Of a DNA stretch of 64,000 bases, positions 890-63,600 are shown piece by piece. This DNA comes from Capitulum mitella (lineage: Eukaryota > Arthropoda > Thecostraca > Pollicipedomorpha > Pollicipedidae). The position numbers and the translations under genes were made by a program. Where the stretch lies: NCBI GenBank assembly GCA_030062745.1, contig CP099847.1, forward strand, positions 23,090,374 through 23,154,373, read 5' to 3'. A model generated the notes under the pieces. That model searched no databases. It had not been told where the DNA came from and saw nothing but the letters and a program-made list of their open reading frames with translations. The number at the start of each line of letters is the position of its first letter. Position 1 is the stretch's first letter.

Positions 890-1084
890 TTGAAACAGTT
901 CTCGTTGTAGATGGCCGACCAGACCCGGGTCGACGAATCGCCCCGGTACCCGGTGAAGCGCTCCGGGTTCAGCAGAAGGTCCACGAACTGCATGTCCGCC
1001 GCCGATTCGTCGTCCATGTCGCAGAAGCTGTCCTGCGCGTCGTCGTGCGCCATCCAGTTGTCCAGCCGACGCTGCCGGGACGCG
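890..1084 (-). CDS. ERO1: ERO1 exon 6 ([10 protein letters not shown] ... NENCF)
   Basis: It starts at acceptor cccacag, where a C completes a Ser codon, and runs through [31 protein letters not shown] and NENCF to donor AA|gtaagt, phase 2. The NPERxTGYxG motif is near-diagnostic of ERO1. The next exon would be left of the LINE at 1-745 and outside the window. Confidence 0.95.
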
Positions 1085-4000
1085 CTGTGGGCGCACAGCG
1101 GGAACAGCAGTCAGCACACAGCGGTCAACACACAGCGAAGCAGCAGTCAGCCAAGAACGCACTAGCAGTCCGCACACGGCGAAACAGCAGTCAATCAGCA
1201 TCGTTAGCCAAGAGCGGCACCAGCAGTCAAAACACAGCAGAGCAGTGGTCAGCTCACGGACGGACAAACACGGGAAAAGCGGCGGCTAGATAGAAGCGCT
1301 TTCCAATCCAGAACAGCCGTGACAGGCCGCCACAACCGACAGTGATAGATCGCTACGACAAACAACAGACAGTCACAACTGGCTGTAAGAGACCGTCACG
1401 ACCGGCTGCCGCAGACCGTCACAACCGGCCGTGACTGGCCGTCACAGCTGGCCGCCGCAGACCATCAGAGCCGTCCGTGACACACTATCACAACTGGCCG
1501 TACAGACGGTCACGACCGGCCATGGCAGAGCGTGACAGCCGGCCGGCCGCGTCTGGGCGCTACGGCAGTGCGGCACGGGCACCTGTGGCGGCCGGTTCGA
1601 TACCTGATGGTGGTGTTGAGGTCGCCCAGGGACTGCTCGCCACAGCCGGCATCCTCCTCCGACTGAGCAGCCTCCGTGTACTGAAACAAATCAGTTCAGT
1701 TTATTTACAAATCGTCCCATCGCGTGGATTACTGTTTGATTCGAGTCATTTCAGTGCAGCAAATGCGCAATAGTCATGTAGGTAAAAGCCGGCAGTCCGA
1801 CACGTCAGGGTGTAGGAGATAGATCATCAAGTTTGCATACAAACTCTCCACGGGTTCGAGAGGCGGTGATGTCCGGCGGCAGGCGGTTCCAGGACGAGGC
1901 CATGCGATACGAAAAAATCCTGCGGGCCACAGACGGATAGAAAGTAGGCGACGCTGGCCGCCCACGCTCGGGTGGCACGCTGGGACACAGCGGTACGTGG
2001 AGTGAACAGGGACCGGACCGCCACCGGAGCACGCGAGTCGTTCAGGGCTCGGAAGACACCAATGCTGTCGCGCCTCGCAGCTAGGTCACGTACGGCGCGC
2101 CAGCCTAGCGTCCTCAAGGTCGCCGACACCGAATCCCGTTTAAGAGCCCCGGAAACGATCCTGGCCCCAAAGTTCACCATCCTCTGAACTCTGCTAAGGC
2201 GGCACGACGCGGCCCCGCCCCAGACCGAACGACAGTAAAGGATGTGGGGGTAAAACATGTGACTGGATTAGGAGTGCCAGGACCTCGGGCGCAAGGTGGT
2301 AACGTATCTTCCACAAACAGAGCAGGATAGAGTTGCCCTTTTTGGTAACTTTGGATATGTGCTCCTCCCAGGACAAGAAACTGTCGATATTGGCCCCCAG
2401 CATCTTCACGGACGGAGACGGGGTTAGTATGTGGCCTGCAAAGTTCAGATGGAAGGATGTGGTCTTCTTGAAGTTATGGGCTGTGTCGACAAGGAGCAGG
2501 GTTGTTTTGGATGGATTCATATTTAAGGAATTGGATGTAAAGTAAGATTTGAGGGCAAGGAGAATCTCTTCTTGCCGGAATTTCAGGATGGGTAAATGAT
2601 CAGGATGTGCGGAATCTGGCAGCTGGGTGTCATCGGTACAGGATATTCGACGTCCGTGAGGCAGATAGGATGGAAGGCTCGTGAAGATGCTGAAGAGGAT
2701 AGGACAATGGACCCCTGCGGAACACCGTTGGGGAGAGGAAGGGAGACAGAACCACCTCTCACCACCTGTCGCCGATCAGCCAGGTGGCTCTCGAACCACC
2801 TGGGATAGATCCCATACCATTGGAGCTTGATCAGGAGGGCGTCATGGTCGACATGTCAAAAGCTCGACTGAGGTCAATCCAGGTGACGGTGACAACGTGG
2901 CCACTGTCAATCCGACGCACCATCCACTCAACTGCGTCAACCAGGGCGTCCTCCGTCGAGTGACGTGGTCTTTATGCATACTGTGATGGAGCTAAAAGAT
3001 CATAGGTAGCGAGACAAGAAGCCAACTATAAGCAATCTTTTCACATATCTTCGACAGCGCAGGTAAGATAGACATGGGTCTAAAATTGCTGGCGATGTCA
3101 CGCGGGCCTGATTTCTGAAGAGGAAGAACAGATGCCATCTTCCAAGAAGAAGGAAAAACACAATTGGCGACAGAACTGTTGATTAGATGAAGTGAATGTG
3201 GCCAGAAAACAGGGAAACATTTTCGCAGCGCATACAGCGACACGCCGTCATGTCCTACCGCCCTCGACGATGACAAATTACTCATAGCTCCCGAGAGTTC
3301 AGGGAGAGTTGAAGGAGACAGACTTAGACTTGACGTCGTCACGCATGGTGGTCTCTAGGTGGAGGCGGGGTGCCACCGTGGCTACCCGCGGCCAGCTCGG
3401 CAGCAATACGAGGGCCGGCGGACGCAAAGTGGCGGTTGAAGTCATCAGTCTGCTCAGCGGACATTTCCCTGGCGGCACCCCCTCCCCCTTGGCGGGCTGA
3501 AAGGCGAAGCTTTTTATGCCTCTCCAAAAACTGGCACGGTCGGCAAGCAAATTGTCAACAAGGATATCACGCTTAGCCCGAGCGAAAATGCTCGTAACGC
3601 TTTTCGAAGGCGTCGGTATGCGGCCAAATCGGTATCGGTTCGGGATTGACGCCACTTCCAGTACGCGTCGTCCCGCTCCTGCATCAGTTGCCGCAGGTCA
3701 GGACTTGTCTCAAGCCATGGGCAATGGGAGCGACGAGGGGCCACCGTTCTGAGAGGACAATGCACATCTACCGCACTCCACCGCACACGCATAAACTTCT
3801 CCAGTTTCCGGTCAATCAGCGTTTCACAGTAAATCCGGTCCCGGTCCGACTGCAGAAGCTGCAGACAGAGCGCGTCCCACTTTACCTCACACCACGGACG
3901 AGCAGCAAAGGGCGTCGGACGATAGCGAGGGCGGCGGAAAGGTGCACTAACAATGGTGGTCAAGTGGTCGGCGATCGGCTCCGACAGCACCTGAACGGCT

Positions 4001-7000
4001 GACTCCAAATGCGGTACGTTCGTGATTATGTGATCCAAGGGCGACCCCGTCAATGAGAATCTATAACCACCGCTGTGTCAATATCAACCACCGACTGCGC
4101 CACTTACGTGTACCGAAACCAATCAGAATCTATAACGACCACTGTCAATATCAATATCAATCACCGACTAAGCCGGCACCGTGTACTGAAACCAACCAGA
4201 ATCTACAACCACCACTGTGTCAATATTAATCACCGACTGCGCCGCCTCCGTCTACTGAAACCAGTAAGAATCAATAACCACCAATGAAACCAGTAAGAAT
4301 ATATAACCATTACTATATCAAAACTGATCACCAACTGCGACGCCTCCGCGGAATGACACCAATCACAGAAACAACCGACTGAAACTATGAAACAGTAATG
4401 AAACAGGGCCGGCACACAGTGCTGAAACTGAAACACTACTGAAACACAAGGAAACGGCAATGAAACTATCAAAGGGTACTGAGTCCAATCTAGCCGGGTT
4501 AATGCCTTCGAGTACTCAAACGGAACTGGGAAACGGTCATGAGACTGAAACAATACTGGAACGGGAAGCAGTACTGAAACACGACTGGGAAATAGTACTG
4601 AATTTGGACTGGGAAAACGTACACTGAAACTGAAACTTTACAGAAACAGGACCCGGAAACGGGAAGCCTGAAACTGAAGCAGTATTAAAACAGGACCGGG
4701 AAACAGAACTGGAACAAGAACAGTACTGAAACAAGTCAGGCCGGCTCAAGACTCCGATTACTGAAACAAGACCGAGAAACAGCACATGAAGCCGAAACAA
4801 TACTGAAATGCGATCGGGAAACAGTACTAAAACAGGACCAAGACACAGTACTGAAACAGAACTGAAACGGGCCCAGGCAGCCTGAAACCGAGACAACAAT
4901 GGACCAGAACCGACAAGCCGTACTGAAACTGAAACAGTGCTGAAGCAGGACCGGGAAGCACTACTGAAACTGGACCCGGAAACAGTCCTGAAACACATGA
5001 GGCCTGCTCACTGTCCCGAGTAACGAAACACACACGCAGGACACGTGCACGATCAGACGCACCGCATGCCTCAATAGCGGGATCTGTTACGAGTGCGGTG
5101 TCCCTGAGCATGAAAACGTGACGGAGCCGACCGCTGACATGGACGGCGGAAAACGTCAGAAATACTTCCACTGCTGAGCACCGAAGCACGCCAAGTCAAA
5201 CGGAAGCTCAGAGTTATAAAGCAAACGACGGCAAAGCATGGCCCTAGAAATGGAACACTACGACTGATGTGCTTAATCCAGCTAATAATGCTGATCTTTT
5301 ATTCTGGATCAGGCCAGCCCAGAACGGTGAAAACGGAAGTTTTCGTTTCTCGCATAAAAGAACTGCACTTGACTGCTAACGATATGAGAACATCGTTCAT
5401 TGTTAAAGACACGATACATTGTGCCTCTTAGCACTAGATGACCTCAAGTCACAAGGCCAGCTTAGGCTACGTCTTGAAGCGGACCAGTTACATATCACCA
5501 CAAGAGGACCATATATCATTCTGACCTGATTGTCCTGATCTGACGTCATTTTTTCGCATCTGCGAGGCAAGACAAACGGTTTAGATCGTCCTGATTGTCT
5601 CAATCACGATCAGTGTTAACAGTGAACAACGATGCCAGGTAAAGTTTTCGATCTCGCATGATATCCAAATGGCCATCAAATGCTTCGAGAAAAAAAACAT
5701 CTTCAGTGGTGCAGAACACAAGCTAAGGCCTCTTGTTCAGCAAGCAATGCGTTAGTTTGTGCAAAAAAATCCCAAAATCCTTGCATGCTTTACGTGATCC
5801 GTGACCCATGTCGTCACACCTTACACCGCACGGCCTATACATCCGTGACCTGACATGACCTGAAACTGAAGTGCGTCTAGAAATGCGCTGAACTGCATGT
5901 GCCTCTGCTATAAAAAATCAGCTGTTGCTGCTCAAAGCCGCCAGGGAGCTACAGAGAGAAATTCTGAAGGGAGCGGATTCCTCCCACTCGTAGAGCGAGG
6001 GTTCCAGACGGAAGTAGTACAAAAAGGTGGGGACCGAGAGGTGTAGACACGAGGGGGCAGGGGGCCATGGCACCACCACTTCTGGGGAAATTTAACATTA
6101 GCCCTGTGGGAAAAACGGTGATGCCCCCTCCCTCCCCATACATGCTTTTCTGGATGTCCCTACGCCTCTGAGGACCAGGATTGTGGAGTGTCGAGAACAT
6201 ATACCAGACACAACAACAGCCTGCCTGGAGATGGCTGACGACATTATCGGGAGATCAGTCGGTCGAGACATGGTGTGCACAGTTCACCCTGCTAGGGTCC
6301 ACACATACGCCTGGGTCCTGATAGGATGCAGGTAATTCCCAATTTCCACATACGACTTTAGGATCACCCAGGTTAGCATTCGGTCGGCAGGGTGCCGTTC
6401 CGTCCTGCCGGAACGCGGCAGTTTCTGGAGACATCACGACACGCCCAGGCCAGCGAACGGTTCAACGCCAAACAGGGATAAACCTAACCTACATCCTACT
6501 GCCATCCAGGCATGTGTCTGCTAGCTTCGACCACGCCCGTATGCGGTGCGCAGCAGCTGAAAACAGCAAACGAATTCGCAAAAAAATCCACGGTGTACGC
6601 ACCGTCCGACCACACCCGAATCTGCGTCCCTCGGATCCCAGCCGGAGCGCCGCCGTACCTTGTAGCTGGGGCTCTCCTCCGGTTCAACCAGCGACGGTCC
6701 AGCCTTCAGGCCGATCGGCACCTCCCCCTGGCGGCAAAGGTCGACGGCGCGTCAGCCGGCACCGGAGGCTCCGCCGCCGGCAAGGCGCGTCTCCCGCGGC
6801 GTGCGGGTTGAGCGGCTCGGCCCTGCCCTGCCCTGCCCGGCCCTGCCCTGCCCTGCCCTGCCCTGCCCTGCCCTGCCCTGCCCTGCGCTGCCCTGCCCTG
6901 CCCTGCCCTGCCCTGCCCGACCCTGCCCGGCCCGACCCTGCCCTGCCCGATCCTGCCCTGCCCGGCCCTGCCCTGCCCTGCCCGGCCCGGCCCGGCCCGG

Positions 7001-9898
7001 CCCTGCCCTGCCCGGCCCTGCCTTGCCCTGCCTGCCCTGCCCTGCCCTGCCCGACCCTGCCCTGCCCGGCCCTGCACTGCCCTGCCCTGCACTGCCCTGC
7101 CCGGCCCTGCCCGGCCCGATCTTGCCCGGCATAGTCCCACCAGCCGGCAGGCGAGAGCCGACTGTCCCATCTGTCCGTCTGACATTCGCTTTGCCACGCT
7201 AACGACGGTCAGGTCACCGCAAATATCTTCAATCGTCTTTAGACAGGCCACGCCAAGCCAGTAGCAAGTCACGCAGTCGTCGGGAGTCGTCTGGTGATGG
7301 TCCCATGCTCAACGACAGGTCAATGAACACGAACACGTATTCCTGGCGACTATGCATGCACCAGAAGCCACATGAATGGGCCTTTGCGGTAAATCTACTT
7401 TCGTCGGCAGTCCGTGAGGCGTAGCCTCGCCGCTACCACCTTCAAAGACAAGCTGCCGTACAGGACCAACCGGCTGTTGAGGCATCAGTTCGATATGATC
7501 ATCAAATGCTGAGTGGAAAAGTGACGCTGTTACGCTGAAGCAAGCACTAAGAATGAGCTAATGAAGGATTCTGCAAGATAAATATTTTATTTAAATGTGC
7601 ATTCGAGTGAACTGGGGTGGCCTTGTCACCTGATCGCTGGCGACGGTTGGGTTATCCAAAGTGGAAATATAATTGAGATGGTGCAAATTTGGCGTTAAAA
7701 TACACGAACTCATCCAACACCTACAGCGAATCCTCCTTTCCATTTTAGGAGTGCGTGGAATGGAACATGTACATATGCCGGGCAGGATAGCCAGCTCACT
7801 GCATAAGACGCCGACGTCCCTGGTCCATTTTAAGCTGTTTCCTATTTACTTTTTTGCCCATTTTTCCACGCTACTCCATCTCACGTGTCGGTCTCGCAGT
7901 GCAACACACGACAGTTTAGGAAACCAATTGCGACGGTAACGAGTCCGCGAAAAAAAAGACTCCCGTAACAACGAAAAACCCAGGCATAAGATATCACACC
8001 CAAGTTCCGCATGCCAAAAAAGCAAGATAGTCAGAGACCGATCAACGGCGAGGCTAACGGGCTAATTGGTTCTGCAAGACCCCCGCGCTCATTCAGCGAC
8101 CCAGACGGTCCGCGCAGTCAACTCCATTTCGCCCGTCGCCGACCCGATCACACACGACCGACAGCTGTTCGCCGCCGGTCACACGCTGGCGACACAGGTG
8201 GCATAACATAATACCACGCCGGCACCGCAGGCCCACAGGTGTCACCTTACTGTGGCCGGCGACAAGCTACCGCCGGCCCGACCTCCCGGCGACCGAGGGG
8301 TCTCCGTCGGCCGCCGCCAGCGACGCCTGGCCCGGCCGAAATGACGTCACATCGCCGGAACTTTTAAAGACGGGTCGGCACACTGCCATGGCGACGGGGC
8401 CCCGGAGCACAGACAAAGACCCAGCCATCTCCTCGACGCCGCGGGGCGCGAAAACCGGTCGAACACGACGGCGACAGGTGGAGACACTGGGGCGGGGTCG
8501 CCGGGTTACCTCGTCGCAGCAGCGGACGCGGCAGGCGCTCTGCGAACAGCGGCCATCGTCCTCCCAGAAAGGGCACGGCCGCCGCAGGTTCACCTGCCGG
8601 CGGGCACACGCACAGGCGGGTAACGACCTTCCCCTGCAACAGGCAACACGATCTGCCCGAACGATATGACCAGGAGCAAGCTCACGTGAGGACTGCGGGA
8701 CAGACGGAGGGACGGACGGACGAACAGATGGACGGACATATCGACGGATGGCGAAAGACGGGCTTATAGGACGGACGGAAAGTTGCCTTACAGGAGCGGA
8801 GAAGCCACCGAACAACATAAACTTCCAGACGAGGTTAATAATCCGACCAGACGTCGAAGACACAGTAAATATTCAATACGTGCAATATTCCATATGATGA
8901 GACAAACCGACGACCCTCACCAGACGTGGTCTCACCTTGTAAAAGCGGAAGAAGTCCTTGACAAGCAGCGACTTCAGCCGAGGGTAGATTTTGACATTAT
9001 TGAAGAAGTCTACGGTGTCTACGTTGCACTCGCAGTCATCCACCTGGCCCTCCAGCTGGTGTTGGTCAGACAGGCACGGGCGTCAGTCCGGCAAGCACCG
9101 CACCGCGGCATCAGCGGGCATCAGACGGCCTCCCTGTTGCACAGTATTCATCGCGCGGACCCAAAGTACCATGCCTATGTCGCAATACATGACGCAAGAT
9201 ATGGATAAGGCGCAAAGCGCCACGTCTCGGGTGCGGCGTGAAAACCTGGTTCAGCGGTTTCTGCTGACCCGGCAATGGAGGCCAGGGTCATTCTGCAGCC
9301 TATTTCGACAATCATTCGCCCTGACTGCTCCTCACTGCTCCTCCAGTACCTAGTATAGCCTGGGTCCTGTTAGGCTGGTGCCACATCCCACACTCCGCAG
9401 GCCTGACCGGACGTCACCCAGAACCTGATGACCTGGCACCACATCCCGCACCGCGTCCCACACCCTGCTAACCTGACCGGACGCCCCCAGAACCTGCTCA
9501 CCTGGCACCACATCCCACACCACACCCTACACCTTGCTAACCTGACCGGACGCCCTCCAGAACCTGCTCGCCTGACACCACATCCCCGCACCACACCCCA
9601 CACCCTACTAACCTGACTGGATGTCCTCAGACCGTTGACCTGCCACCACATTCTCGCACCACACCCCATACCCTGCTAACCTGACTGGATGTCCCCAGAC
9701 CCTGCTGACCTGGCACCACACTCTACACCCTTCTAACCTGACCGGACGCCCGAAGACCCTGCTGACCTGGCAGAAGCAGCGGTCCAGCGCGGACTTGTCG
9801 ACGGCGGGCGGCTCAGACGTGAAGCTGAACTGGCCCGCTCCGGCGGCGGCCCAAACCAGCAGCAGCGACAGCAGCAGCGGAGCGGCCACGGACGCCAT
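890..9898 (-). CDS. ERO1: ERO1 endoplasmic oxidoreductin, N-terminal six exons (3' part outside window)
   Basis: ERO1 is the FAD-dependent thiol oxidase of the ER lumen that reoxidises protein disulfide isomerase and passes electrons to oxygen. Coding exons on the minus strand: 9767-9898, 8936-9055, 8510-8593, about 6659-6729, 1604-1680 and 890-1084, together about 225 residues. Seen in the sequence: a hydrophobic signal peptide (residues 1 to about 21), the family start DRCFCQ, then [26 protein letters not shown], the shuttle dithiol CSQSAC (a CxxxxC motif), and [13 protein letters not shown] followed by NENCF. These match the N-terminal half of animal ERO1 in order. The FAD-binding core and the CxxCxxC active site should lie left of base 1. 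All junctions keep phase except exon 3 to 4, which is one base out. LINE remnants sit in introns 4 and 6. The family call is firm; the exact exon 4 start is not. Confidence 0.93.
1085..1603 (-). repeat. Minisatellites filling ERO1 intron 5
   Basis: Nearly the whole 519-base intron is degenerate tandem repeat. At 1085-1270 units of about 20-25 bases contain ACAGC...GCAGTCAG and run up to the exon 6 acceptor. At 1310-1560 units contain CCGTCACAACCGGCCG and approach the exon 5 donor. I see no other content. Confidence 0.75.
1604..1680 (-). CDS. ERO1: ERO1 exon 5 (acidic loop)
   Basis: It encodes [20 protein letters not shown] and then LNTTI plus two bases (AG) at donor gtatcg. The piece aligns with the variable acidic, cysteine-containing loop of ERO1 (YSEEAN...EECE). 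Phase 0 in and phase 2 out match the neighbours, and the join recreates TTIS. Confidence 0.88.
1805..4060 (-). mobile_element. 5'-truncated LINE (CR1/Jockey-like), frameshifted
   Basis: From right to left on the minus strand: endonuclease C-terminus ([17 protein letters not shown], near 4050), a linker, RT motifs including [15 protein letters not shown] (about 3060), [16 protein letters not shown], the motif A IDLSRAFD (about 2860), NGVPQGSIV (about 2720), a YxDD-like CTDDTQ (about 2620), and a C-terminal tail ending SWNRLPPDI (about 1880). Stops and frameshifts separate the pieces. It lies in ERO1 intron 4 in sense orientation. The closest animal families are CR1 or Jockey; the clade call is tentative. 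Confidence 0.88.
4075..5010. repeat. Degenerate minisatellite, (TACTGAAACNGGA)-like, ERO1 intron 4
   Basis: Two related arrays. At 4075-4330 units of roughly 60 bases contain CCACTGTGTCAATAT and CTACTGAAACCA. At 4400-5000 shorter units contain TACTGAAAC, GGACCGGGAAACAG and similar. They start at the truncated 5' end of the LINE. Confidence 0.75.
5011..6658. other. ERO1 intron 4, remainder; no gene seen
   Basis: No exon, RNA gene or complete element was recognised. A stretch around 5960-6100 (ggtggggaccgag...gggggcaggggg) looks like transposon-derived sequence but has no definable ends. Confidence 0.4.
6659..6729 (-). CDS. ERO1: ERO1 exon 4 (VPIGLK...PSYK)
   Basis: The reading frame [21 protein letters not shown] ends at donor AAG|gtacgg, phase 0, and matches the ERO1 segment VPxGIK...YK that precedes the acidic loop. 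The best acceptor is ccgccag just before 6729. From there the frame needs one base from exon 3, but exon 3 ends in phase 0. A one-base error in the run of five C at 6726-6730, a micro-exon, or another splice site would explain this. Confidence 0.75.
6817..7135. repeat. (CCCTG)n pentanucleotide array, ERO1 intron 3
   Basis: About 64 units of CCCTG with interspersed CCCGG, CCCGA and CACTG variants. It is strand-asymmetric (C-rich on plus, G-rich on minus), so the ERO1 pre-mRNA carries a long GGGCA-type G-rich run about 90 bases upstream of the exon 4 acceptor. Long open frames through it on both strands are by-products of the repeat. Confidence 0.97.
7136..8509. other. ERO1 intron 3, remainder; no gene seen
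   Basis: There is no exon or element I can support. It is AT-rich to about 8000 and then becomes very GC- and CpG-rich (8270-8509) toward exon 3. Confidence 0.4.
8510..8593 (-). CDS. ERO1: ERO1 exon 3 with CxxxxC shuttle dithiol
   Basis: Twenty-eight codons beginning [16 protein letters not shown]. It holds CSQSAC, which aligns with the regulatory and shuttle cysteine pair of animal ERO1 (CGRRDC in the human alpha form), and ends CRVRCCDE at donor GAG|gtaacc, phase 0. Confidence 0.94.
8685..8775. repeat. GGAC-rich simple repeat, ERO1 intron 2
   Basis: Irregular tetranucleotide repeat (GGACGGACGGACGAACAGAT and similar), about 100 bases upstream of the exon 3 acceptor on the minus strand. Confidence 0.7.
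8936..9055 (-). CDS. ERO1: ERO1 exon 2
   Basis: Forty codons in phase 0 at both ends, between acceptor caccag and donor AAG|gtgaga. It reads [20 protein letters not shown] and goes on to KDFFRFYK. This is the conserved ERO1 segment between the N-terminal CFCQ and the VNL...CPFW motif. Confidence 0.95.
9382..9780 (-). repeat. Minisatellite starting at the ERO1 exon 1 donor
   Basis: About six units of 58-70 bases. On the minus strand each begins CAGGTCAGCAGG or a close variant (CAGGTGAGCAGG, CAGGTCATCAGG) and then runs through CGTCCGGTCAGGTTAGCA to GTGTGGTGC. The first unit is the real exon 1/intron 1 junction (CAG|gtcagcagg), so every unit carries a donor-like copy. Confidence 0.9.
9767..9898 (-). 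CDS. ERO1: ERO1 exon 1: signal peptide and DRCFCQ
   Basis: Forty-four codons from the ATG at 9898-9896, chosen because a hydrophobic signal peptide follows at once ([20 protein letters not shown]). The exon ends in CFCQ with donor CAG|gtcagc, phase 0. A polypyrimidine-AG at about 9938 and a gtgagt at about 9985 upstream could bound a short 5'UTR intron, but this is not proven. Confidence 0.93.
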
Positions 9899-22427: not shown

Positions 22428-22479
22428 ATGGGTCGCGCCGCGTCCGGGCTCGCCGTGCAGCTCGCCTTCTGGCTCTCAG
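22428..22479 (+). CDS. Orphan secreted protein exon 1 (signal peptide)
   Basis: Seventeen codons plus one base from the ATG 41 bases after the predicted initiator. Hydrophobic core AVQLAFWLS; donor CAG|gtgcgt, phase 1. Confidence 0.8.
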
Positions 22480-22748: not shown

Positions 22749-22816
<68 letters not shown>

Positions 22817-23048: not shown

Positions 23049-23142
<94 letters not shown>

Positions 23143-26100
23143 AATATTTTGATTTAAGCGTTTGTGTGTTGGTTACAGACTGTTATTCCAAGTCCTTTCT
23201 TCTCTTTTAATTTGGTGTTATACAATTTTTTGGGGGGATTCGAATAACTCTAAAGCGCACTTTAATCACCGCTTAAACCAGCAGCATTTCTCCCAGCGCA
23301 AGTGGGGTTTTCGGTTTGGGTTTGCAGGTGAACATTACATGCACTATACGTTACGAACGTCTGATGTGAGCTTTGAATATCGATACAGGTCTGGTGTGAT
23401 GCAAAGTAATTTCGGCACTTACCACCCAAGGAAGTGCAGGTTGATATCTCACGTGTGCCTGCGGTAATGATTGCCGTCATGACTGAGTAAGTTGAAAAAC
23501 ACCATCGAAAACAAAAACACCAAAGAACAAAACGTTACTCCTGAATCTAAGCGAAACGAAAACATGTGGACGCCTCGGCAAAACGTGCAGGAAACTCGGT
23601 ACCCTAGTGAAATGTTGTTAAATTAGGCACCCTTTAAACTTGACAGACTAGTTACTTTTCAGTCGTGTCCACGCTTTGTTGACGGGCACTATCCAAGATT
23701 TTTCCACCAAACAACTGCAGCGTTATCCTGTTAAATATTTCATACTGAATTTGTCTGGTGAATGCGTACCTGTTGTTGCTGTTTTTTTTCATGCGTCAGC
23801 ACGCTCAGTCTCAATGAAGCATCCAAACAATCTGTGAATTCATTATGGGAGCCTATGTAATGAGCATCCCAACGAGTTAAAGTTTTCAGTCCCAACCCAT
23901 TAAAAAATATAACGTTTTTGTGCTGCTGCTATTTTTCGTGCTTACCGCAAACTATACCGAATGAATTGCAATTATTAAGTGAGTTCCACGACTGCTTTTG
24001 CATTTAAATGGTACCAAATTCCGAATGTTGGAATGCTCGACATGGTCTGTTCCGTGCTTCCGTTCCGCGTTTTCAACGTAATCTACCTTCTGTGGGAGCC
24101 GAGAACTGCGATTTCATGTTTATAACACAGTGTGATCTTTGCATAGCTCGCTGAGTTAACTGTTTTAAAACTTCCCGTATTGTCCCTGGCCGTACGGTCC
24201 CATGTTTCATTCATCCAACGCAGAGCTATGTGAAAGTAATGCAACACTGGCAGTATGTCCGAGCAACTTGACAAAGTTGTTTGTAACTGAGCTGGAGCAT
24301 CAGGTAGAATCGTAACTCAAGCCTGGTGTTGAGAAATGACATCATGAAGAGGTATGATTCTTATCGCGTATCTAAGGGTCGCCTTTGTTTTTCATTTTTT
24401 TAGGCCCGTGTCTTAAATACCGTCTCTTTAGTCGAATGTTGAACTTGAGAGAAAATATTTTCCGATATTATTCGTAGGTACATCCACTTGACACATTAAT
24501 TGTCTGACCTGACCTGACTTAAACTCGCTGTTGCCCAATAGCACCAGTTTTTCTCACCAGCTTTCTCCGTTCTAACAGATGTGACCTGGGAGGCCTGCAC
24601 GGCTACAACGTGTTGGCCGTGGTCGCGCGGAGCCCAAACCCTCCTGACCTGACCCTGACCTGACCCGATCCGACCTGCCCCGACCTGACCTGACCTGTCT
24701 GGCTGCCCGCCAGTGGCGGCCGCGGTCGTGCCGACTCCGTCCGCCCCGCGGGACGACACGGTGCTGGTGGGAGAGCTCAGCTTCCTGGACCGGCTGGTGA
24801 ACCCGTGCCAGGTGGCGCGCACCGGGCCGTTGGTGCCGGCCTCGGCCGCCGCCGACGACGACGACCAACGCCAAAGCACTGAGGAGCTGGTCGTCGAGGT
24901 GCAGCTGGCGAGCTCGCTGGTCCGCGACGTGCGCGTCATGGCGGTACGTGCCCCTGGACGGGTCAGACGGGACACGGGAACGGGTCCCAGCTCCTCCGCT
25001 CACTCAGGTCACACGGTTATATCGAACGACCCCGTCAAACAGGCCGGAAAACACGGGCAGGCAGATCAGACGGGCGGTCAGACGTCATCATCACGGACCC
25101 CCGACACACAAGCTGGGACAAGCAGGCGCCCTTCTCTAACACAGAATAATGATGTTGTTGTTCTGCTGTTGCTGTTGTTCTTATTAAGCAAGCCCTAACG
25201 AGAGATCATGAAAGTGTTGGCTCTGACCACATTCCTATTTCAAACACAACGTGGATGGCTGTGGATGACTGGCATCATGACCTAAACAGCTGTGACCTAT
25301 ACAGCCGTGTCTTTGAAAGTTGTGACTTTGACGACTGTGGCCTTTAAGATCGTGATCTTCATGACGGTTGCCTTTAAGGTCGCTACCATGGTCTTGAGAG
25401 TCGTGACCTGGACGGCTGTGACTTTGAGACCTGGAAAGCTGTGACCTCTAAGTCCGCGACCCGGTTGCAGGGTGTGCCGAACTGTGACGGTCTTCACCTG
25501 CGGAGCCAGCCGCTGATGTCGGACCTGTCCGGTCTCCCGGTGAGCACGTCCTGGCAGCCCGGCAGAGCCGCTTCGCCCCTGAGCGCACGCCGCAGAATCA
25601 CTGCCCAGACGGCTGAAGAACGCGGCGAGCTCGGCGCACGTCGGCAGTTCTGTGTCGTTCTGTTCGCGCGGATTGCTGGATGTCGCATGACTCGATGTTC
25701 GGCTGAGGCCGACTGTAGAACGTACCTGACGTCACTGGAGACACTGATGAAATCAAGAGTATTTCCTATCTAATGTCCAGAACCTCTTTACCAAGACACT
25801 AATCTGTGGTGATGGAGACACATAGATACGAGCCGAAGACCGTTCCCAGACTGAGTTGAATAGTCTCTTCCTGTCGCTGTCTGCAAACTGCCAAACTGAT
25901 TTTTATGTAACAGAATGTGACCGTAACCCAGTTTGCATAATACCAAAAGCGTCAAGTCTTTTCGTCTAGGACGTGCTGTGGGTGCCCTATTCTCCTAGAC
26001 CATCTCAAGATTTCCGGTGAGACGAGGTTGCCTCCAGCTGACGTCAGCATGCGCTCAACATGTTCCGGGCCTTGTTACCACCTCATGCATGCATGTAAAC

Positions 26101-29100
26101 GTTGTGAAGCCCCCGCTGTCGTCGGCCACCGGCTGACCTGCCTTGTCATTCGACGAACTTCCCCACAGCGCAACGGTCGGCGGCCTCGCCACGTCTGATT
26201 GGCGGCGTCGCGGACATTGCTCCAGCGCCGACGAGGCACCGTCGTCGGTAAGCAACCAGCTTCCACCGGCCAATGGGCCCTTCCGCCGAGCTGACCCACT
26301 CCGAGTGGGTAAACTCGGCCGGTGGGAGGAGATGCTGTGCTGCATATTCCCGATATCAACCGGAGCCGGCCGACTTCTCCTGGCTGGCCTCGCTGTCCGG
26401 AGTCATGTTCCCGGGGAACGTGACCGGACGTGGCGATGTGGTTCATTCATCGAAGCTGAGACCACCTGGCTGTGGCCGGCGTGGGCCGCCGCTCTGCCCG
26501 CTTCACGGCTCTCAGATGGCCTGAGGCGCTGCAGAACAGCGTCTCAGTCAGCGTCCAGAGGTCAGGTCGGCGGCACGCTGGCAGGTGAATGCAACCCCCT
26601 GCACGATGACCAGCAGAGACAAGATCCTCGTGCATGTGGCATGTTTCGACGACGAGCCCCCGACGCTATCCATATTTCCATGTATTTTGGCGCGAGTGTG
26701 GTAGTGTTCGTGCTGAATTCTGCATGCCATCTCTGTATGCGCTTGCTCCAGGCGACTCTGACCAAAAACTGAGCCGTGCACTCAAAAAAAAACTCACATG
26801 CCGTAAATGTTTCTGGAGTATCAGGGATCTAGAGCCAAGATGTTTGTTTTTCCAAAGCGCAAAGTCGCAGACATTCTATAATCTCGTGTACTGTGGGTTT
26901 CAAGTGCGACGAAAGGACTGGCCACTTCGAGGACAACGTATCCTGTGATGATAGAAAGCGAGGCCATTTGATTGAGTGCAGAGGCTGTCCCCATGGAGTG
27001 CTGTTCACAGCTCTGAGAAATATTGTCTCTCGTACTGAGGAGGTGTCGACGCCGTCTTCGGGAACTCCGACCGCCATCTTGAGAGACTCCGTCTCCCGTC
27101 CTAAAGAGCTTCGTCTCCTTTCCTGGGGAGTTTTGTCTGCCGTCCTGACGGGTGGCGTCCGTTGCAGCGTCGGCAGGCGCTGACGGAGTTGTACCGCATG
27201 TGCGTGTCCGAGGTGGCGCACCTGTACCTGATGGCGCAGGAGATTGTCGACTCCCACCACACCTGCGGCAACGAAAGTTTCTACATGGTCGACAAGCTTG
27301 TCACGTACGTGGCTGACGGTTATGAGCACGAAATGATTGGGAGACGTAAGAGGAGGGGGAGAGAGAGGGGGTCTGCAAAAGGAAGCATGTTTTTCTTTCT
27401 GTTTTTCATGCAGTACCATTTTTTATTGTCATCTGTTTTCCCAAAACTAAAGACAGTTTTGCATTGGCATTTATGGTCATGCGGTCATGCGGTATTATCC
27501 GATTACTCCATTTGTCTCTGATGAGAGAAATCGGTATGTAGCTAGGAGGTCGCAATATAATGCTTCTTACGATAAAGCATCAGTTTCGGTTAATCAAGCA
27601 AAAAGATATAGTAACAAGAATGTCTTCGCGGTCAAAAGCTTTGGTGGTTATCGAGGTCTCGTGAGCTGGTTCAGATCACAGCACGCCTATGAAATATTAG
27701 TACCTCGAAATTCAGGAGCTCCATTTTTAGCATCTGACCTTGGACCGTGTCAGGGGTCACACCAACAGTCCACTTTGATTGGACATTAGCGTCTTGCATT
27801 TCTGTTGACGTGACCTTTCTTGGCTTTCAAGTCGCGCGAGACTGAGCCCTCTTCCCCGCGGTGCGATGGCTGGTCGGCCCGGTGCTGGTGATGACCTAGC
27901 GCATCACTGCTACATCACAGGCTAGCTGGCAGCCTGCAGAACATCCTCTGCGTCATCTCCGAGAGCGTGCCGCCGGCGACCCTGCGTCCCGTGGTGGACT
28001 CGGTCAAAGGGGTGGCGCTGCATCGCTACAGAGACTGTTCCCGCCGACTGATGAGGTGAGGAGCACACGGACCGGGAACACCGGGATTGTTCCCGTCGAC
28101 TGGTGGGGTGGGGAACACACGGACCGGGAACACCGGGACTGTTCCCGTCGACTGATGGGGTGGGGAACACACGGACCGGGAACACCGGGACTGTTCCCGC
28201 CGACTGGTGGGGTGGGGAACACAGACCGGAAACACCGGCACTGTTCCCGCCGACTGCTGAGGTGGGGAACACACGGACCGGGAACACAGGAACTGTTCCC
28301 GCCGACTGGTGGGGCGGGGAACACACAGACCGGAAACACCGGCAGTGTTCCCGCGGTTGATGAGACGAGGAACACACAGACCTGAAGCAATTGCTGAGGT
28401 GGTTCGGTTTTGGAAGCTAAAGTTCAGAAGCAGTGGCCTTTGAACCATATTGTAAGTGTTACAAAGAAACAGTGGACACACAAGGGATGCTTATTCTCAT
28501 AGTTTGAAGAGGTGCGTTGTCTTATTAGTCCTGCCGCATGGGTAGAAATACGAGATTAAGCGTGTTCTGTCGTTCCATTCTTGTTTCTTTGTTCGTATGC
28601 TGGATGCCTAATTTTTAAGACGCTGAAAATTTCACTGGCGGGAAGGTTAAATCGCAATGAAATGAAAAGACAAACATGAAGAAAAAAAGAAAAGAAAGAA
28701 ATGAATCGCAATCAGAATGAAAAGACATACAGTAGTCCTAGGGAGCTGCAACAGGTGAACACCCTGGTGACGTTGGTGACTCAATTTTCCATGTACGTTC
28801 CCTTACATCGTGCACAAAGATTCACACTCACCGTCCTATTATAGGCTTATGACCCTGTTTCGCATAATCCTGATTCCATGCGCAGGCTTTTTTGTTTTGG
28901 AAGCAGTCACTCGCTAGCCAGATAGTAATGTCTTGAAGAGACGTTCTTCCGCCTGGCAGGAACTGCTTGGTGCTGGACAACACCATCCGCATGCTGGCGC
29001 TCTCCACGCAGTATCTGCACGAGGCAGAGCTAACGCGAGCCGCCTTCCTGCACCAGCGTATGGCACGCAGCGTCCGGCGCCGGGTCGACCGCGTACCGTC

Positions 29101-54823: not shown

Positions 54824-54915
54824 GTCGGCGCGGCCCGGGCCGGACCGGGCTGGTCAGCAGTGGGGAGCCGGACTCGGCCGGATGGCCGACAGTGAACAGC
54901 CGGGTCGCCTGCTCG

Positions 54916-55083
54916 AGGTCAGCAGTGAACCGCCGGGTCACCGGCCGGAGGTCAGCAGTGAACCGCCGGGTCACCGGCCAGAGGTCAGCAGTGAACCGCC
55001 GGGTCACCGGCCGGAGGTCAGCAGTGAACCGCCGGGTCACCGGCCGGAGGTCAGCAGTGAACCGCCGGGTCACCGGCAGGAGG
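54916..55083. repeat. 33-base minisatellite upstream of the globin ATG
   Basis: Five units starting 54916, 54949, 54982, 55015 and 55048 (AGGTCAGCAGTGAACCGCCG then GGTCACCGGCCGG), followed by a partial unit at 55081. It ends about 90 bases from the start codon, so it lies in the promoter or 5'UTR. Because 33 is a multiple of 3, it makes a repetitive open frame that is not evidence of a gene. Confidence 0.96.
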
Positions 55084-55814
55084 TCAGGAGAAGAGGGCCG
55101 CCCGCCAGAGCAGGGTCACCGGTCGGCGGCAGCGGTCTCGGGTCGCGCTCCTGACGGGAGACCGTAGACGCGGTCCTGACAGGAGACCGAGACCGGACGG
55201 TCGGCGGTCCCGGTCCGCGGACGCGCCGGACCGCGGCGCGCTCAGCCGGCCGGCTCGTCCGTAGACATCCTCTGCGAGACGGAGAGAGCCGACTGGCCTC
55301 ACTCACGGGTCACAAACGCCTCAGGTGAGCGTTGCGGACAGACTGGTGGTGGCAACGGCCCGGTATGATTACTGGCTCTTACTGCACAATGTATATCGTA
55401 CGAATTCCAGCTGAGTGGCGGCAAAGCATGAGCCGAGATTCCTCCACGTCACATTTGTCTCAGCACTTTTGCACCCGATCCCTGACAGGCAAACACCATT
55501 GAGCGTGCGTGCAGGAACAGAGCGCCGGTAGCAGATCTCAGAGTTACACAACGATATTTCTTAATAACTATATCACGATGTTCCGTGTACGCTTTGTGAA
55601 TGGGATACATCAAATACGGGATTCAGCTATTTCCTAGAGCTTTTAGACGATTTGTCGTTAAAGGCTTCAGTTTTCATATCAACATCACAAAAACCACGTT
55701 TCGGCAACGTGAGCAATCACCAAAATTCCGACATCTCAAGCCCCTCCTCGACCTATTGACGTGGCTGTAAAACCAAGCTATCAGTGACAAGTAGCAGCTA
55801 AAAATACACTGACC
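55084..55814. other. Globin upstream region
   Basis: GC-rich to about 55320 and then ordinary DNA. No TATA box was recognised. Confidence 0.4.
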
Positions 55815-56988: not shown

Positions 56989-56994
<6 letters not shown>

Positions 56995-57657: not shown

Positions 57658-57665
57658 GTCGGAAT

Positions 57666-59983
57666 CAAAGCGAACCCGGAGGAACTGCAGTCTTGCATGG
57701 CAAGACTGAAAGCAATGCAGCCATTGCAAGTCTTGAGGCAATTCCTTTCATGCTAAGCCACAGGGCATATGAGGGACAAAAAGCAGCAGATGACGGTAGC
57801 CCCTGTTCCCCTCACCATCAGTGTATTTTCAAGTCAGCACACCACCTTTCGAATCAACTGCACACACACCAAATCCAAGTAATAAGACTGTATTTTACTT
57901 TATATTTTCATCAATATACACGCATAGCACAAGGGTATAAACAGAGAATATCGACGCCATTTTGCAAAGCAAGCACAACCATGTAAGCCTACACCTACCG
58001 ACGCGACTGAGTACGCACAGTTCACTACGAAACTCTGGCAGTCAGATACCTGTCTCAGTAGCCCGGGAGGCGCCTCCACGACCTCCCGGCGCCCGAACCC
58101 CCTCGTCTGGCGGAAGTTTCAAAGGAGCTGTGCTCGCAGCAGTGTGCTGAGCGCCCGAGGCTCGGTGAGCTAACAGTTGGCAGACGCCGCAGGACACGGG
58201 GTCCTCGGCGCTGGAGCTAAAGAAACCTGAATTTCCGACGATTCGATGTCCGACATTGAGAGGGGGCGGAGCAGACGTCACGGAAGTTCGTACTGCAGTG
58301 GAGCGGTAGGCAACGGAGCCACCGCGCAGCATCATCAGCGTGAATACACACTGAAAATGCATGCCTGCTAGCACAGGTGGTCACGGAGACAACTGAGGCG
58401 AACGGACGATGCAGGTCGATTTATAATAAAAAACATACAAAAACAAAAGTATCGCAGACCGGCCGGCAGTTTGGACAAGGGAAGGCGCTCACTGCGTCGT
58501 AACACTTCGTCCGCATTTCTGCAGGACTGGTGCTCCAACATTTGCAGCCAGCAGTGAGCATGTCAGGTCCCTCAGAGCAGACGTGCTTTAAAAATACGCG
58601 CTTGATCAACGTAATAATCAGCGGGGCTTAACACACTGCGAAATTCTGAGACAGGATGTACTTATGCTCCTACGTTTTCCGACTGATAAGAGTTAAGGCC
58701 GGTCTGCCACGAATATTTCAAGGTCGACGGAGACAAGAGATTTCGCACGCGGTCGTTTTACGGGCGGAACGCTCTTAAGAATAACGAGATCGTTTTATAA
58801 CGGCCAATCCACTTTTTCCGGACGTATGGATGTGACTTTCTCCCAAGAGAAATGGCGCAGGAACGTTCTTTAAGCACTGAACAAGAGTAGTTGGTCCCAC
58901 AGAAGGGCACAAATATGTAACAAAACTTCATCACGACCCAGTATATAAAATACAGTGCGGACAGTCTTCAGATCACGTCCAGGTCTAAGAAATTTCGTGG
59001 AGAACGTTATGCATAGTACAATCCTGTTGCTCGAAAACCTATCCTCTGCGAACAACCGCACCATGGTCTGAGACCTTTCATGTCAACAACGAAAGTACGA
59101 AACCCCACAAAGTCGCCTTCGATTCATTTCGTTGAGACATTCCGCAGCAATACAGTGCATATGAAAAACAGGCTTCTGCCACAGAGTCCGGCAATAAAAA
59201 TGATTGGGAAGGGCCGAGCCAGGCGTTTCCGTGGGGAAGACGAACACTCTCATCGCTGAGCGAAAACCTCCTAGAGATCCATCATCGCCGGCGCGCGGCG
59301 GCACCTCCACAAAAACAAACACCAAGACTGAGCAACAGGAGACCACTGACGAACAGATGTCGGCTCGGCCGCCGGACGGTCCCGCGCGCGGCGCCGGCCA
59401 CAGACCGAGTAAAGCGACGCGCCGCCGACGGCCCGTAAATCGCGGCACAAAGCACACTCCGCCCCGCATCCCCGCCACTCGACGCAATCTCGTCCAGCAA
59501 CGCTATGGAATCTCTGATCTAGCATTCATATTGACTAGGTGATATTATCATAGATTTGTTTTTGCCCCGGCGGCGGGCGCACGGCCCAGGACCCCGGCCC
59601 GCCGTCCCGCCGACCCGCCGACACCGCCGCTTCCCGGCCGGCTGCTGGGGCGCTCATTTCCGCCTGCGTCACCCGTCTCCGGGCCCTCGTCCCCGCCTGG
59701 GGTCCGCCCTCTGCATCAGGTCCTCCCTCTGCCCAGGAGATCCCCTTCAGCTCAGGAGATCCCCTTCAGCTCAGGAGATCACCTTCAACCCGGGAGGAAG
59801 CCGTGACCGCGCACCAGACGTCCAGGCAGAGGCCCCCGGGAACGGCCGGCCGGGACCCAGCAGCGGACGTCCAGACGCCCGGACGGCCGGCCGGGCCGCG
59901 CCGGCGGCCGCCTATCTGAAGACGTCGTCGCCGGCGGGTGGTGGCGGCCGCTGCAGGATGCTCATGGGCCGGCCGGCGGCCGC
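57666..59983. other. Intergenic between globin and myosin genes
   Basis: No gene was recognised. CpG-rich stretches at 58040-58330 (with GGGGGCGGAG and TGACGTC-like motifs) and from 59350 onward could be regulatory. A 20-base repeat (CTCAGGAGATCCCCTTCAG) lies at 59733-59790. Confidence 0.35.
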
Positions 59984-60054
59984 CTATCTGAAGACGTCGT
60001 CGCCGGCGGGCGGCGGCGGCCGCTGCAGGATGCTCATGGGCCGGCCGGCGGCCG
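59901..60054 (-). repeat. 72-base tandem duplication covering the myosin stop codon
   Basis: Two near-identical 72-base units (CTATCTGAAGACGTCGTCGC at 59912 and 59984). The right one encodes the last residues and stop of the myosin; the left one is a non-coding copy just past the stop. Confidence 0.95.
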
Positions 60055-60142: not shown

Positions 60143-63100
60143 CTGGCGGCGGGACGGCGACGTTAGACCCGTTAGACCCGCCGACGGACCCGGCCGGCCA
60201 CACACTGGTCACACGTGACACCGGCGGTACAGACACAGGGGCGGGTCAGGGAGGTCACGTGACAGACCAACGTTAGAATAGCGGGACTGGTGGGGAAAAA
60301 CGGAAACTATTGTCGAAACCAGCGTAAAGCACAGACCCGCACCAGCGTTCAGATGGGCTTATTTTGCGTCATATGTTATGCTTCACGCCAAATCTAAAAA
60401 AAAAAATCTGGTACCGCACATAGTGGGGGTAAGGCGCGTCATAAATATCAAAGACGCAAGTACGCATCATTGTCAATCAATAATACAGTAAGGCCAACCC
60501 GTTCCAAAAAAAGGAGCAGAGTCGGCAGCAAGTCAAGCAGACAGCACGTTAAGACGAGACATCCTGGCTTTGCGCTCAAGAGCGTCGTACATCAGAACAC
60601 GGAAACACGGATGTGGTTAACTTGAGCTTTACTCGATTAGAAATGCGGACGGCGCGACTGCCGTAATGCGAAGAAGTAGGTAAGGAAACATAGCGCGCGA
60701 CTACACACTACACATCATACTTTGAGTTGGCTCAACTGCAAACGTGGACCATATCACTCGGAATGCAAATCAGACTTCGTAACGAAGTTCTGACAAGCCC
60801 GCCAGCTAGGCACAGTCTTTAAAACCGGTCCAGTTTTAGTCTTCTGCGGTGAACACACATCATACGACTATCAATAGTTAAGCAAACGGCGAGAAAATTA
60901 TAACTGGTCGCTAAGGTCACAAAAATTCACCAAGACCCGTTAAACGCCGTCTGTTGCCAAACCAATGCATCATATTATGGCTGGTCACAAAAAGGAGCAC
61001 ACGAAGAATTGATTACGTAGCATGTACTTCCCAATAACGCCGGTTCCTACAACCCAACTCAGTCCGGAGAGCCTGCTCAATCAGGAGCAGGTCCTCCCCG
61101 GGAGCAGGCCAGACCCTCACCACCAGCCCACCTCTCCAGTCAGGAGCAGGTCCTCCCCGGGAGCAGGCCAGGCCCTCACCACCCGCCCACCTCTCCAGTC
61201 AGGAGCAGGTCCTCCCCGGGAGCAGGCCAGGCCCTCACCACCCCCCCCCCCCCAGTCAAGAAAAGGCTCCCCAAGGCCACCCTCACACCCGCCACCTCTC
61301 CTCGGCCGGAGAAGGGGGACCCTCACCACCAGCCCACCTCTCCAGTCAGGAGAGGTTCTCCCGGAGCAGGCCAGGCCCTCACCATCAGCTCAGGAGCAGG
61401 TCCTCCCCGGAGAAGGGCAGACCCTCACCACCAGCCCACCTCTCCAGTCAGGAGCAGGTCCTCCCCGGGAGCAGGCCAGGCCCTCACCACCAGCCCACCT
61501 CTCCAGTCAGGAGCAGGTCCTCCCCGGAGCAGGGGAGACCCTCACCACCAGCCCACCTCTCCGCAGGGCGGAGCAGGGAAGACCCTCACCACCAGCCCAC
61601 CTCTCCAGTCAGGAGCAGGTCCTCCCCGGAGCAGGCCAGACCCTCACCACCAGCCCACCTCTCCCGTCAGGAGCACCTTCTCCCGGGAGCAGGCCAGACC
61701 CTCACCACCAGCCCACCTCACGCCGGCTCACCTGTCCCGTGTTGAGGATGATCTTGCTCTGTTTGCGCGTGCTGCCGGTGATGATCATCAGCGAGTTGAT
61801 GGCCGGGCTGTAGTTGACGATGTAGTCGTACTCGTACGTGCAGAGCACGTTGCGGCTGCGGAAGTCCAGCAGGTGGACGCCGTGCTCGTCCACGGCCAGC
61901 CACAGCATCTTGGGCCAGTTGGAAGTGAACGATTGCTGCCGCAGCGGTGGGCACGATTACAAGCGGCCGAATGAGATTCCTGACGACATCTGTTGCGAGT
62001 TTTTCATGTAAATGAGCTACGGCTACACGCCGGCTAGCTGCCCACCGGCAATGGCTGTTCCGGCGAGAGAACAGTGCTTAGTATGTTCGGTAGCTTGGGG
62101 ATTATATTGCTTAAAAAAGCACCGTGACAAGCAGAACGGAATATGGAGCAACAACTTTAATTAGTTTCTTGGAATTCTGCCAAAAAAGCGTGAGTTATTT
62201 AAATGGTGTTTCCGTCAGCAAAAAAAGAAACAGTCTACATCAATACCACGAACACTTCAAGATCACAAGCCGATCAAATGCACCAACTCATCCGGCGCAG
62301 CTTCCCCCCCCCCGCCCCGAGGAGCCGCGCGCAGCCGGCGCGTCCCACAGCGCGGCGCCGGCGCCGGCAGCGGCCACTCACCACCACCTCGAAGATGCTG
62401 GCCCGGTAGAACGGCCACGACTGGATCAGGTTGAGGAACGCCTGCTTGGCCTGGTCGGGCGACATGCCCTCCAGGCTCTGGTGGTGCACGGTCACCGTGT
62501 GCACCGAGGCGACCGAGGCGACGCGCGGCGGCAGCGTGTACGCCATCACCTGCTGGTAGTCGATCGCCGACAGGTTGTAGTCGCCCAGCTCGATCTGGGC
62601 CCGCAGCGCCGTCAGCATCACCTGCCGGTGCAAAGAACGGGTGACGTCACATCGGGACAGAGAGAAGAATGGCGTTACATCGGGCAGGAAAGATGGGTGA
62701 CGGCACATCGGGCGGAAGAAAGGTGAAGTAACGCCAAGATGAACAGACAATGACTTCTTGGCTGACTTAGGTACACGGGTGACGTCACGTCCGTGTGGCG
62801 ACAGGTGACGTCATAATGGCGCGGACAGCGCTTGACATAAGCAACATATCGTCACCTGCAGACGGAAACCTAGTCGAACCTAGTCGGAGGCGAGACGGCA
62901 ACAGTAGCGACGGGGAGGGATGCCTAGCAGGATGCACCAGGAATCTGGCGTGACAGCGACCAGGAGCGCAGCGCCAGTTCCCGACAGCCGACCCTCGCGC
63001 ACCAACGCCACCCTCAAACCACTGGGACATCTCCCAGTTCGCCGACCACACTCAGCACCGGCTACAGCAGCAGACGCCGCCAAGGCTCCCGCAGAGCGAC

Positions 63101-63320
63101 GGCCGGCCGCGGAGAGCGGGCCGCAGCCGCGCCACTCACCGCCTCCATCGTGGTCAGCGGGAACTTGTCGTTGCGCACGTTGTGCAGCATCTGGTGGTAG
63201 AGCAGCTCCTTCTCCACGCGGTCCTCCAGGTCCAGCGTCTCGTCGCAGAGCAGGTGCTTCTTGAAGAGGAAGATGTGCTGCTTGCGCGCCTTCTCAGTGC
63301 CGGCCGTTGCCGTCTGGTAC
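59984..63320 (-). CDS. Unconventional myosin (class XV-like), C-terminal FERM exons
   Basis: Actin motor of the MyTH4-FERM class. Only the C-terminal end is in the window: exons 63140-63320, 62382-62621, 61732-61935 and 59984-60142, about 260 residues, all joins phase 0. Seen: FERM F1/F2 ([20 protein letters not shown], then [39 protein letters not shown] and GDYN), the rest of F2 ([20 protein letters not shown]), and FERM F3, PH-like ([20 protein letters not shown], then [17 protein letters not shown]). The final helix is [20 protein letters not shown] short Pro-rich tail ends DDVFR. Class XV myosins (vertebrate MYO15A, fly Sisyphus) move cargo to protrusion tips. Class XV is my best match; class VII or another FERM myosin cannot be excluded without a search. 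Confidence 0.85.
60143..61050. other. Myosin intron (left part), no gene
   Basis: It contains one copy (60719-60850) of a dispersed sequence whose inverted partner is at 63769-63905. Otherwise nothing was recognised. Confidence 0.5.
60719..60850 (+). repeat. Dispersed repeat, copy 1 of inverted pair
   Basis: TTGGCTCAACTGCAAACGTG, ACTTCGTAACGAAGTTCTGA and AACCGGTCCAGTTTTAGTCT are shared with 63769-63905 on the opposite strand. Confidence 0.9.
61060..61725 (-). repeat. About 60-base minisatellite beside myosin exon C donor
   Basis: Roughly eleven units containing CACCAGCCCACCTCTCCAGT and CAGGAGCAGGTCCTCCCCGG, with deletions in some. On the minus strand units begin AGGTGGGCTGGTGGTGAGG, similar to a splice donor. 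Confidence 0.93.
61732..61935 (-). CDS. Myosin exon C (FERM F3)
   Basis: Sixty-eight codons from [15 protein letters not shown] to SKIILNTGQ, donor CAG|gtgagc, with a 60-base minisatellite beginning about 12 bases into the intron. Confidence 0.9.
61936..62381. other. Myosin intron between exons B and C
   Basis: No repeat or element was recognised. It is very GC-rich next to exon B. Confidence 0.5.
62382..62621 (-). CDS. Myosin exon B (FERM F2)
   Basis: Eighty codons, [16 protein letters not shown] to ASIFEVV, between ccggcag and GTG|gtgagt. The run of GTG at the donor leaves one codon of uncertainty at the end. Confidence 0.88.
62622..63139. other. Myosin intron between exons A and B
   Basis: A loose GGTGACGTCACATCGGG-like repeat at about 62640-62800, starting about 18 bases from the exon B acceptor; otherwise GC-rich intron. 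Confidence 0.55.
63140..63320 (-). CDS. Myosin exon A (FERM, F1/F2 start)
   Basis: Acceptor ctccgcag, first complete codon Tyr, donor GCG|gtgagt. It encodes [20 protein letters not shown] and onward to FPLTTMEA. The acceptor adjoins a 40-base minisatellite whose units resemble it. Confidence 0.85.
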
Positions 63321-63600
63321 CTGCGGAGCGCGGGGTACCGGGCCCAGTCAGAACACTGTACCTGCAGAGCGGGGGTACCGGGCCCAGTCAGAACACAGTA
63401 CCTGCAGAGCGGGGGTACCGGGCCCAATCAGAACACAGTACCTGCAGAGCGGGGGTACCGGGCCCAATCAGAACACAGTACCTGTGGAGCGGGGGTACCG
63501 GGCCCAGTCAGAGCATGGCATCTGCGGAGCGTGGTTATCGCTCCCAGTCAGAGCATGCTACCTGCGACGCGGGTGAGTACCAGGCCCAGTCAGGGCATGG
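63318..63600 (-). repeat. 40-base minisatellite abutting myosin exon A acceptor
   Basis: Units start at 63318, 63358, 63398, 63438, 63478, about 63517 and about 63558 (GTACCTGCAGAGCGGGGGTA then CCGGGCCCAGTCAGAACACA). On the minus strand each contains ctctgcag|gtac, close to the real acceptor ctccgcag|GTACC. Confidence 0.95.

Follow-up and report, generated by a model that had tools for sequence, protein, structure and literature searches.

In amphioxus, minisatellites called 'mirages' have been described at exon-intron boundaries of Adh3, the globins BflGb6 and BflGb9, troponin C and PGBD5 (PMC3087553, PMC3902484). According to the parts of these two reports considered here, the arrays span the boundary at either intron end, with units of 10-160 bp that include an exonic part and, in many copies, AG/GT signals; splicing was checked by reverse transcription PCR and copy number differs between haplotypes. 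Intron gain via tandem duplication of AG/GT proto-splice sites has also been proposed (Rogers 1989; Venkatesh 1999; Zhuo 2007; Gao and Lynch 2009, as cited in PMC3087553), and a further article, in the part consulted, deals with repeats within coding sequence (PMC7536079). Here we analysed a 64,000-nucleotide stretch of the arthropod Capitulum mitella (assembly GCA_030062745.1, contig CP099847.1 or C9, positions 23090374-23154373; hereafter the window), in which a sequence-only reading had noticed minisatellites starting at splice junctions of three unrelated genes and had proposed a genome-wide amplification of junction DNA into introns. The assembly (477 Mb, 16 contigs) was also searched beyond the window. 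The tandem arrays at exon-intron borders are real. They have a common anatomy, recur in unrelated genes, show a flat density over introns and junctions, and are nearly absent inside the sampled exons. They are probably mirage-type minisatellites, that is, ordinary tandem duplications that can persist across a splice border but are eliminated from coding sequence; the earlier interpretation, taken as a whole, is partly supported.

Junction-bearing arrays in the window and in other genes

Twenty-nine splice junctions, all GT-AG, were placed in the window: those of an ERO1 gene and a myosin tail by homology, those of an orphan gene and a globin-like gene by GT/AG and open frame only, with frame continuity traced by hand across all but the single globin-like donor. 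Tandem Repeats Finder (TRF) gave 41 rows over the window. Four arrays, at the ERO1 exon 1 donor, the orphan exon 5 donor, the myosin exon A acceptor and the ERO1 exon 5 acceptor, hold copies of the junction and consist, as mirages do, of tandem units with both exonic and intronic sequence (Table 1). Identity of the copies to the one at the junction ranges from 78-100% and is mostly below 97%. The unit in ERO1 intron 1 includes the donor CAG/GTCAGC plus a second, internal CAGGTTAG, and the units of the ERO1 exon 5 acceptor array carry about 22-25 nt of ERO1 coding sequence beside the acceptor. The sequence-only reading had recognized the first three of these arrays and had stated that the splice site lies within the unit in at least three cases, which holds with four; the ERO1 exon 5 acceptor array had been overlooked.

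This last array lies 2.4 kb away from its acceptor, separated from it by an insert of about 2.36 kb. Removal of the insert joins array and acceptor in register, with a score of 123 vs 81 for the 5' flank alone and 93 for the best of 300 control joins, and the breakpoints allow four equal choices within 8 bp. Because omission of this segment restores the register, we infer that the array was later split by inserted DNA. The insert is likely a 5'-truncated, broken non-LTR (non-long terminal repeat) retroelement with a target duplication of about 8 bp; the name comes from our reading of the sequence, since Pfam searches of four single-frame pieces gave no reverse-transcriptase match and a single weak, unrelated match below the cut-off.

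Junction-copy arrays also occur outside the window. In a TCP1-family (chaperonin) gene on contig C13, the donor AAG/GTAGGG recurs 13 more times, identical, from +35 to +480 and mostly with 35-bp spacing (array at about 13510149), and a TCP1-family gene on C5 has 12 copies of an acceptor that include at most about 35 nt of the coding exon; one copy is identical at 49/49 positions. The exon end of a kinesin gene on C3, presumably encoding a conserved kinesin stretch, is present in 7 copies, and the array of a TCP1-family gene on C7 is degenerate. The kinesin gene is one of two inverted paralogs 60 kb apart (C3:974865-979786 and C3:1033933-1038405), only one of which has the array. Their exon blocks are 99.5% (2 mismatches in 391), 94% and 92% identical and their introns are not alignable, which suggests ectopic gene conversion restricted to exons. 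Within the sampled DNA, none of 43 array queries matched outside its own locus, except for one match at the kinesin paralog.

Rows of decoy splice sites, which had been claimed for the arrays, are present in several of them and not in all. Sites scoring like the true one number 11 in ERO1 intron 1, 6 at the myosin exon A acceptor (five scoring the same as the true one, in five units), 14 in the C13 and 7 in the C5 TCP1-family gene, and in these four arrays GT or AG signals are retained in many units, as in mirages; orphan intron 5 and the myosin C-D intron have 0 sites of similar score each. Since counts run from 0 to 14 between arrays, decoy rows belong to some arrays only. The simple splice score itself discriminates weakly, because ERO1 intron 4 alone has 129 acceptors of similar score.

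Other arrays in the window lie near junctions or coding ends (Table 1). Repeats do adjoin the myosin exon C donor and the ERO1 exon 6 acceptor, as had been reported, but the unit lacks the site at the former, and at the latter the repeats are weak and hold no site copy. The arrays that had been described as looser are 53 bp from the ERO1 exon 5 donor, 21 bp from orphan exon 4 and 161 bp from a possible orphan exon 3. The repeats near the myosin exon B acceptor and the orphan exon 2 acceptor had not been mentioned in that reading. Just beyond the window, the donor of the previous myosin exon (64929 in window numbering) is followed by an array that begins at +18. This intron, which precedes myosin exon A and also has an array against its acceptor, was excluded from all counts. 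A (GCCCT)n array of about 60 copies was observed at 6820-7117, 92 bp off the ERO1 exon 4 acceptor.

Table 1. Coordinates of arrays and associated features, in window numbering
Feature	Positions	Strand	Basis and remarks
69/139-bp array, ERO1 intron 1	9381..9772	-	TRF; begins 6 bp inside exon 1
52/154-bp array, orphan exon 5 into intron	28033..28386	+	TRF; from 23 bp inside exon, across donor 28056; unit includes donor
40-bp x 6.8 array, myosin exon A acceptor	63317..63593	-	TRF; overlaps first exon bases; unit includes acceptor
69-bp x 3.3 array, ERO1 exon 5 acceptor copies	4051..4283	-	TRF
Insert within ERO1 exon 5 acceptor array	1695..4057	-	Rejoining alignment
ERO1 exon 1 (signal peptide to CFCQ)	9767..9898	-	Homology to PDB 3ahq
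ERO1 exon 5	1604..1680	-	Homology to PDB 3ahq
59-bp (and 102/118/219) array, intron after myosin exon C	61081..61719	-	TRF; begins 12 bp inside intron; unit without donor
Weak 14-22 bp repeats near ERO1 exon 6 acceptor	1104..1194	-	TRF; end 19 bp off
23/46-bp array, ERO1 intron 5	1363..1550	-	TRF; near exon 5 donor
22-bp repeats	27082..27146	+	TRF; end before orphan exon 4 acceptor
(CCTGA)n	24643..24697	+	TRF; ends 16 bp before orphan exon 2 acceptor
28-bp array	62632..62726	-	TRF; about 10 bp off myosin exon B acceptor (17 bp in another TRF run)
72-bp (24-codon) x 2.2 repeat	59893..60054	-	TRF; spans myosin C-terminal codons and stop codon; coding edge, no splice site
30-bp array	29131..29211	+	TRF; begins 12 bp past orphan stop codon
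33-bp x 6.4 array	54875..55087	-	TRF; about 50 bp upstream of globin-like first exon start codon

The joined exons of the ERO1 gene (minus strand) matched PDB 3ahq with an E value of 1.4e-55. The myosin tail, on the same strand, is of the MyTH4-FERM type (FERM_M 1.4e-16; E 1.9e-15 vs myosin-VIIa). The orphan gene, on the plus strand at 22428-29119, has six exons and encodes a 260-aa protein with a signal-like start, for which a Pfam search at E 0.05 returned no family; the same threshold gave no family match for the small first exon (63 aa) that we take to be globin-like.

Array placement and repeat density

The introns examined outside the window derive from Pfam matches to ERO1, myosin head, TCP1 and kinesin (5, 86, 61 and 129, respectively, among the matches listed). 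Only consecutive exon pairs inside the sampled DNA were used, so that tandem alternative muscle-myosin exons, one myosin lacking introns, genes whose matches are not consecutive and the majority of kinesin genes were left out; 72 introns were called from 81 such pairs, and 9 were not called. The muscle myosin genes on C14, C15 and C16 show several tandem matches to Myosin_head positions of about 377-436 within one gene, which we take to resemble the alternative exons known from muscle myosin genes of arthropods, and an intronless myosin head match in a 679-residue open frame (C1:14897776-14899626) is possibly a retrocopy.

The comparison of array-to-junction distances with random placement, suggested in the sequence-only reading, gave a divided answer in the 72 introns: array edges are nearer to junctions, but repeat density at junctions is not raised. 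Raw TRF coverage by distance was set aside, and event counts and 24-mer profiles were adopted, because coverage mixes array length with array number. Junction 24-mers were matched elsewhere in their own intron in 8/144 cases (5.6%; percentages are intron-weighted). The corresponding values are 7/144 (4.9%) for the first 24 intron bp, 40/654 (6.0%) at 25-75 bp, 54/775 (6.3%) at 75-150 bp and 220/1580 (7.4%) in deeper intron, and the junctions are not denser in repeats than elsewhere in introns (5.6% vs 6.0-7.4%). Junction-spanning 40-mers agree, with 8/144 repeated vs 8.8 expected from mid-intron, and in the 13 window introns 3/26 junctions (11.5%) are repeated vs 17-22% of the interior.

Exon edges are copied into introns and exon interiors are not: 7/144 exon-edge 24-mers (4.9%) were matched in their own intron vs 0/432 from exon interiors (Fisher 5e-5), although among the seven matches the one at C13:13504425 (12 nt) looks like chance and that at C2:12425380 is a single extra copy. 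Smaller copy tests on 39 and 58 introns agree with the 72-intron result, and in the 58-intron subset TRF arrays cover 59/13,920 bases of the 120-bp exon edges vs 9.9% of intron bases. As regards the proposed genome-wide amplification, recurrence outside the window and copying of exon edges into introns are borne out; preferential amplification of junction DNA is not.

TRF found 20 arrays in 16 of the 72 introns. Those truly spanning a junction number 3/20, vs 2.0 expected if seeds are placed at random (P 0.32). Within the window, 8/29 junctions have an array near them vs 2.3 expected when arrays are shuffled over the whole window (P 0.003), and vs 5.5 when they are shuffled over gene spans (P 0.18). 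The gene-span shuffle was set aside, since random arrays may then cover exons, and within-intron nulls were used instead.

Origin of the arrays

We favour the ordinary tandem duplication introduced above. A short segment would be duplicated in tandem, the duplicate would be multiplied through slippage or unequal exchange, and the array would persist where the mRNA is unharmed. Unit multiples of 69/139, 52/154 and 59/118 in the arrays are consistent with unequal exchange. Where a duplication straddles a junction, the outermost junction copy would serve the exon and the inner copies would become intron with decoy sites; such a duplication would be tolerated because one outer copy remains in use. 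Conservation of the coding part suggests that copying runs from exon to intron, and duplications wholly inside coding exons would mostly be removed. Through this removal and the tolerated straddling, edges would gather at borders and units might hold the site without any sensing of splice sites. The flat density and the arrays at stop codons are the expected outcome if tandem duplication is random and its products are removed from coding sequence.

Several results weigh against this account. Array edges lie within 25 bp of a junction or across it in 9/20 arrays, vs 3.9 expected when a duplication seed is placed at random within the intron and border straddling is allowed (P about 0.006). The same nine compare with 2.25 expected under uniform placement inside the same intron (P 0.00025); without ERO1 the count is 9/17 vs 3.3 expected (P 0.001), and six threshold sets give P from 0.004 to 0.05. 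Among strong arrays (TRF score of at least 120, unit of at least 10 bp), 6/9 are near a junction vs 1.9 expected (P 0.004), and in the 13 introns of the window, which had itself suggested the hypothesis, 7/13 arrays have an edge within 25 bp vs 1.85 expected. This roughly twofold edge excess, larger for strong arrays and in the sample mostly at donors, goes beyond a flat-density picture. At a looser match threshold, moreover, 1/348 exon-interior probes was repeated (58-intron set), and the sample is small and limited to four gene families.

The edge excess outside the window, two- to threefold within 25 bp, strongest for strong arrays and with 5/6 of those at donors, favours a junction-directed amplification, in which the duplication rate is raised by R-loops, slippage on GC-rich DNA, fork stalling or short homologies shared by cryptic GT-rich sites, and so does the intron upstream of myosin exon A with its two arrays. 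Against it, repeated bases show no excess at junctions over mid-intron, spanning arrays are about as frequent as random seeds would give, in the window, arrays come near acceptors no less often than donors (4 and 3), and stop codons, too, have arrays over or next to them. We therefore regard such a mechanism as unlikely, if still worth weighing; it is possible and is not needed, and there may be a modest junction bias. Equally doubtful is its broadest form, a genome-wide process in this arthropod lineage whose tandem duplications preferentially begin at exon-intron borders, donors in particular, with a sizeable share of introns seeded by junction copies. If true, junction-seeded duplication would lengthen introns, lay out reserve splice sites and supply raw material for new introns.

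Selection might instead keep the arrays, with repeated splice motifs aiding or regulating splicing through exon or intron definition, enhancers or competing sites. The arrays in which numerous sites equal the true one (13 donors in the C13 TCP1-family gene, 5 acceptors upstream of myosin exon A) would suit this idea, but it is very improbable given that the orphan intron 5 and myosin C-D arrays lack any similarly scoring site and ERO1 intron 4 reaches 129 in any case, that unit lengths of 35, 40, 52 and 55 bp are not divisible by three, unlike 69 bp, and that a close kinesin paralog lacks such an array. Chance or artefact, through low-complexity introns rich in GC, miscalled exons or misassembly, hardly deserves credence: some arrays are weak and the gene-span shuffle was not significant, but the divergence of the copies is unlike that of assembly duplicates, dinucleotide-shuffled introns give only 7 TRF rows in 123,201 bp, the sampled exons were placed through conserved protein families, and copies of exon edges exceed those of exon interiors.

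Relation to known systems

Junction-spanning arrays in several of the 72 sampled arthropod introns suggest a more general by-product of tandem duplication. They offer a natural experiment on splice-site choice by the spliceosome among neighbouring sites that are nearly identical, and raw material from which introns could be gained or alternative splice ends arise. The flat density profile sets a simple null expectation, to be exceeded before amplification directed by splice sites is claimed.

The human IFI6 (6-16) gene has a minisatellite whose tandem units each carry a splice donor at the exon end, and the repeated donors are used. The likeness lies in donor-bearing tandem units at an exon end; the inner donors described here are candidate sites only.

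A partial literature survey, mostly at the level of listings, found no arthropod report of junction-spanning minisatellites. In the assembly, Chitin_bind_4, an arthropod cuticle domain, gave at least 150 matches (150 of 627 first-look candidates scored), which marks the genome as that of an arthropod. The arthropod is a new lineage for a known kind of array, the mirage. As far as the consulted parts of the lancelet reports go, the common anatomy consists of boundary-spanning units with AG/GT in many of them, whereas mirages were reported from lancelets and the present arrays occur in an arthropod and are known from the sequence of one assembly. The reported occurrence in a lancelet genome does not hold for the present arrays, and it is a matter of distribution rather than a defining property of mirages; relative to the same portions of that work, the density profile over introns and exons is added here. 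With the proto-splice-site model, in the outline available to us, the arrays share the copying of splice signals by tandem duplication; in that model new introns could form, whereas the present arrays lengthen existing ones.

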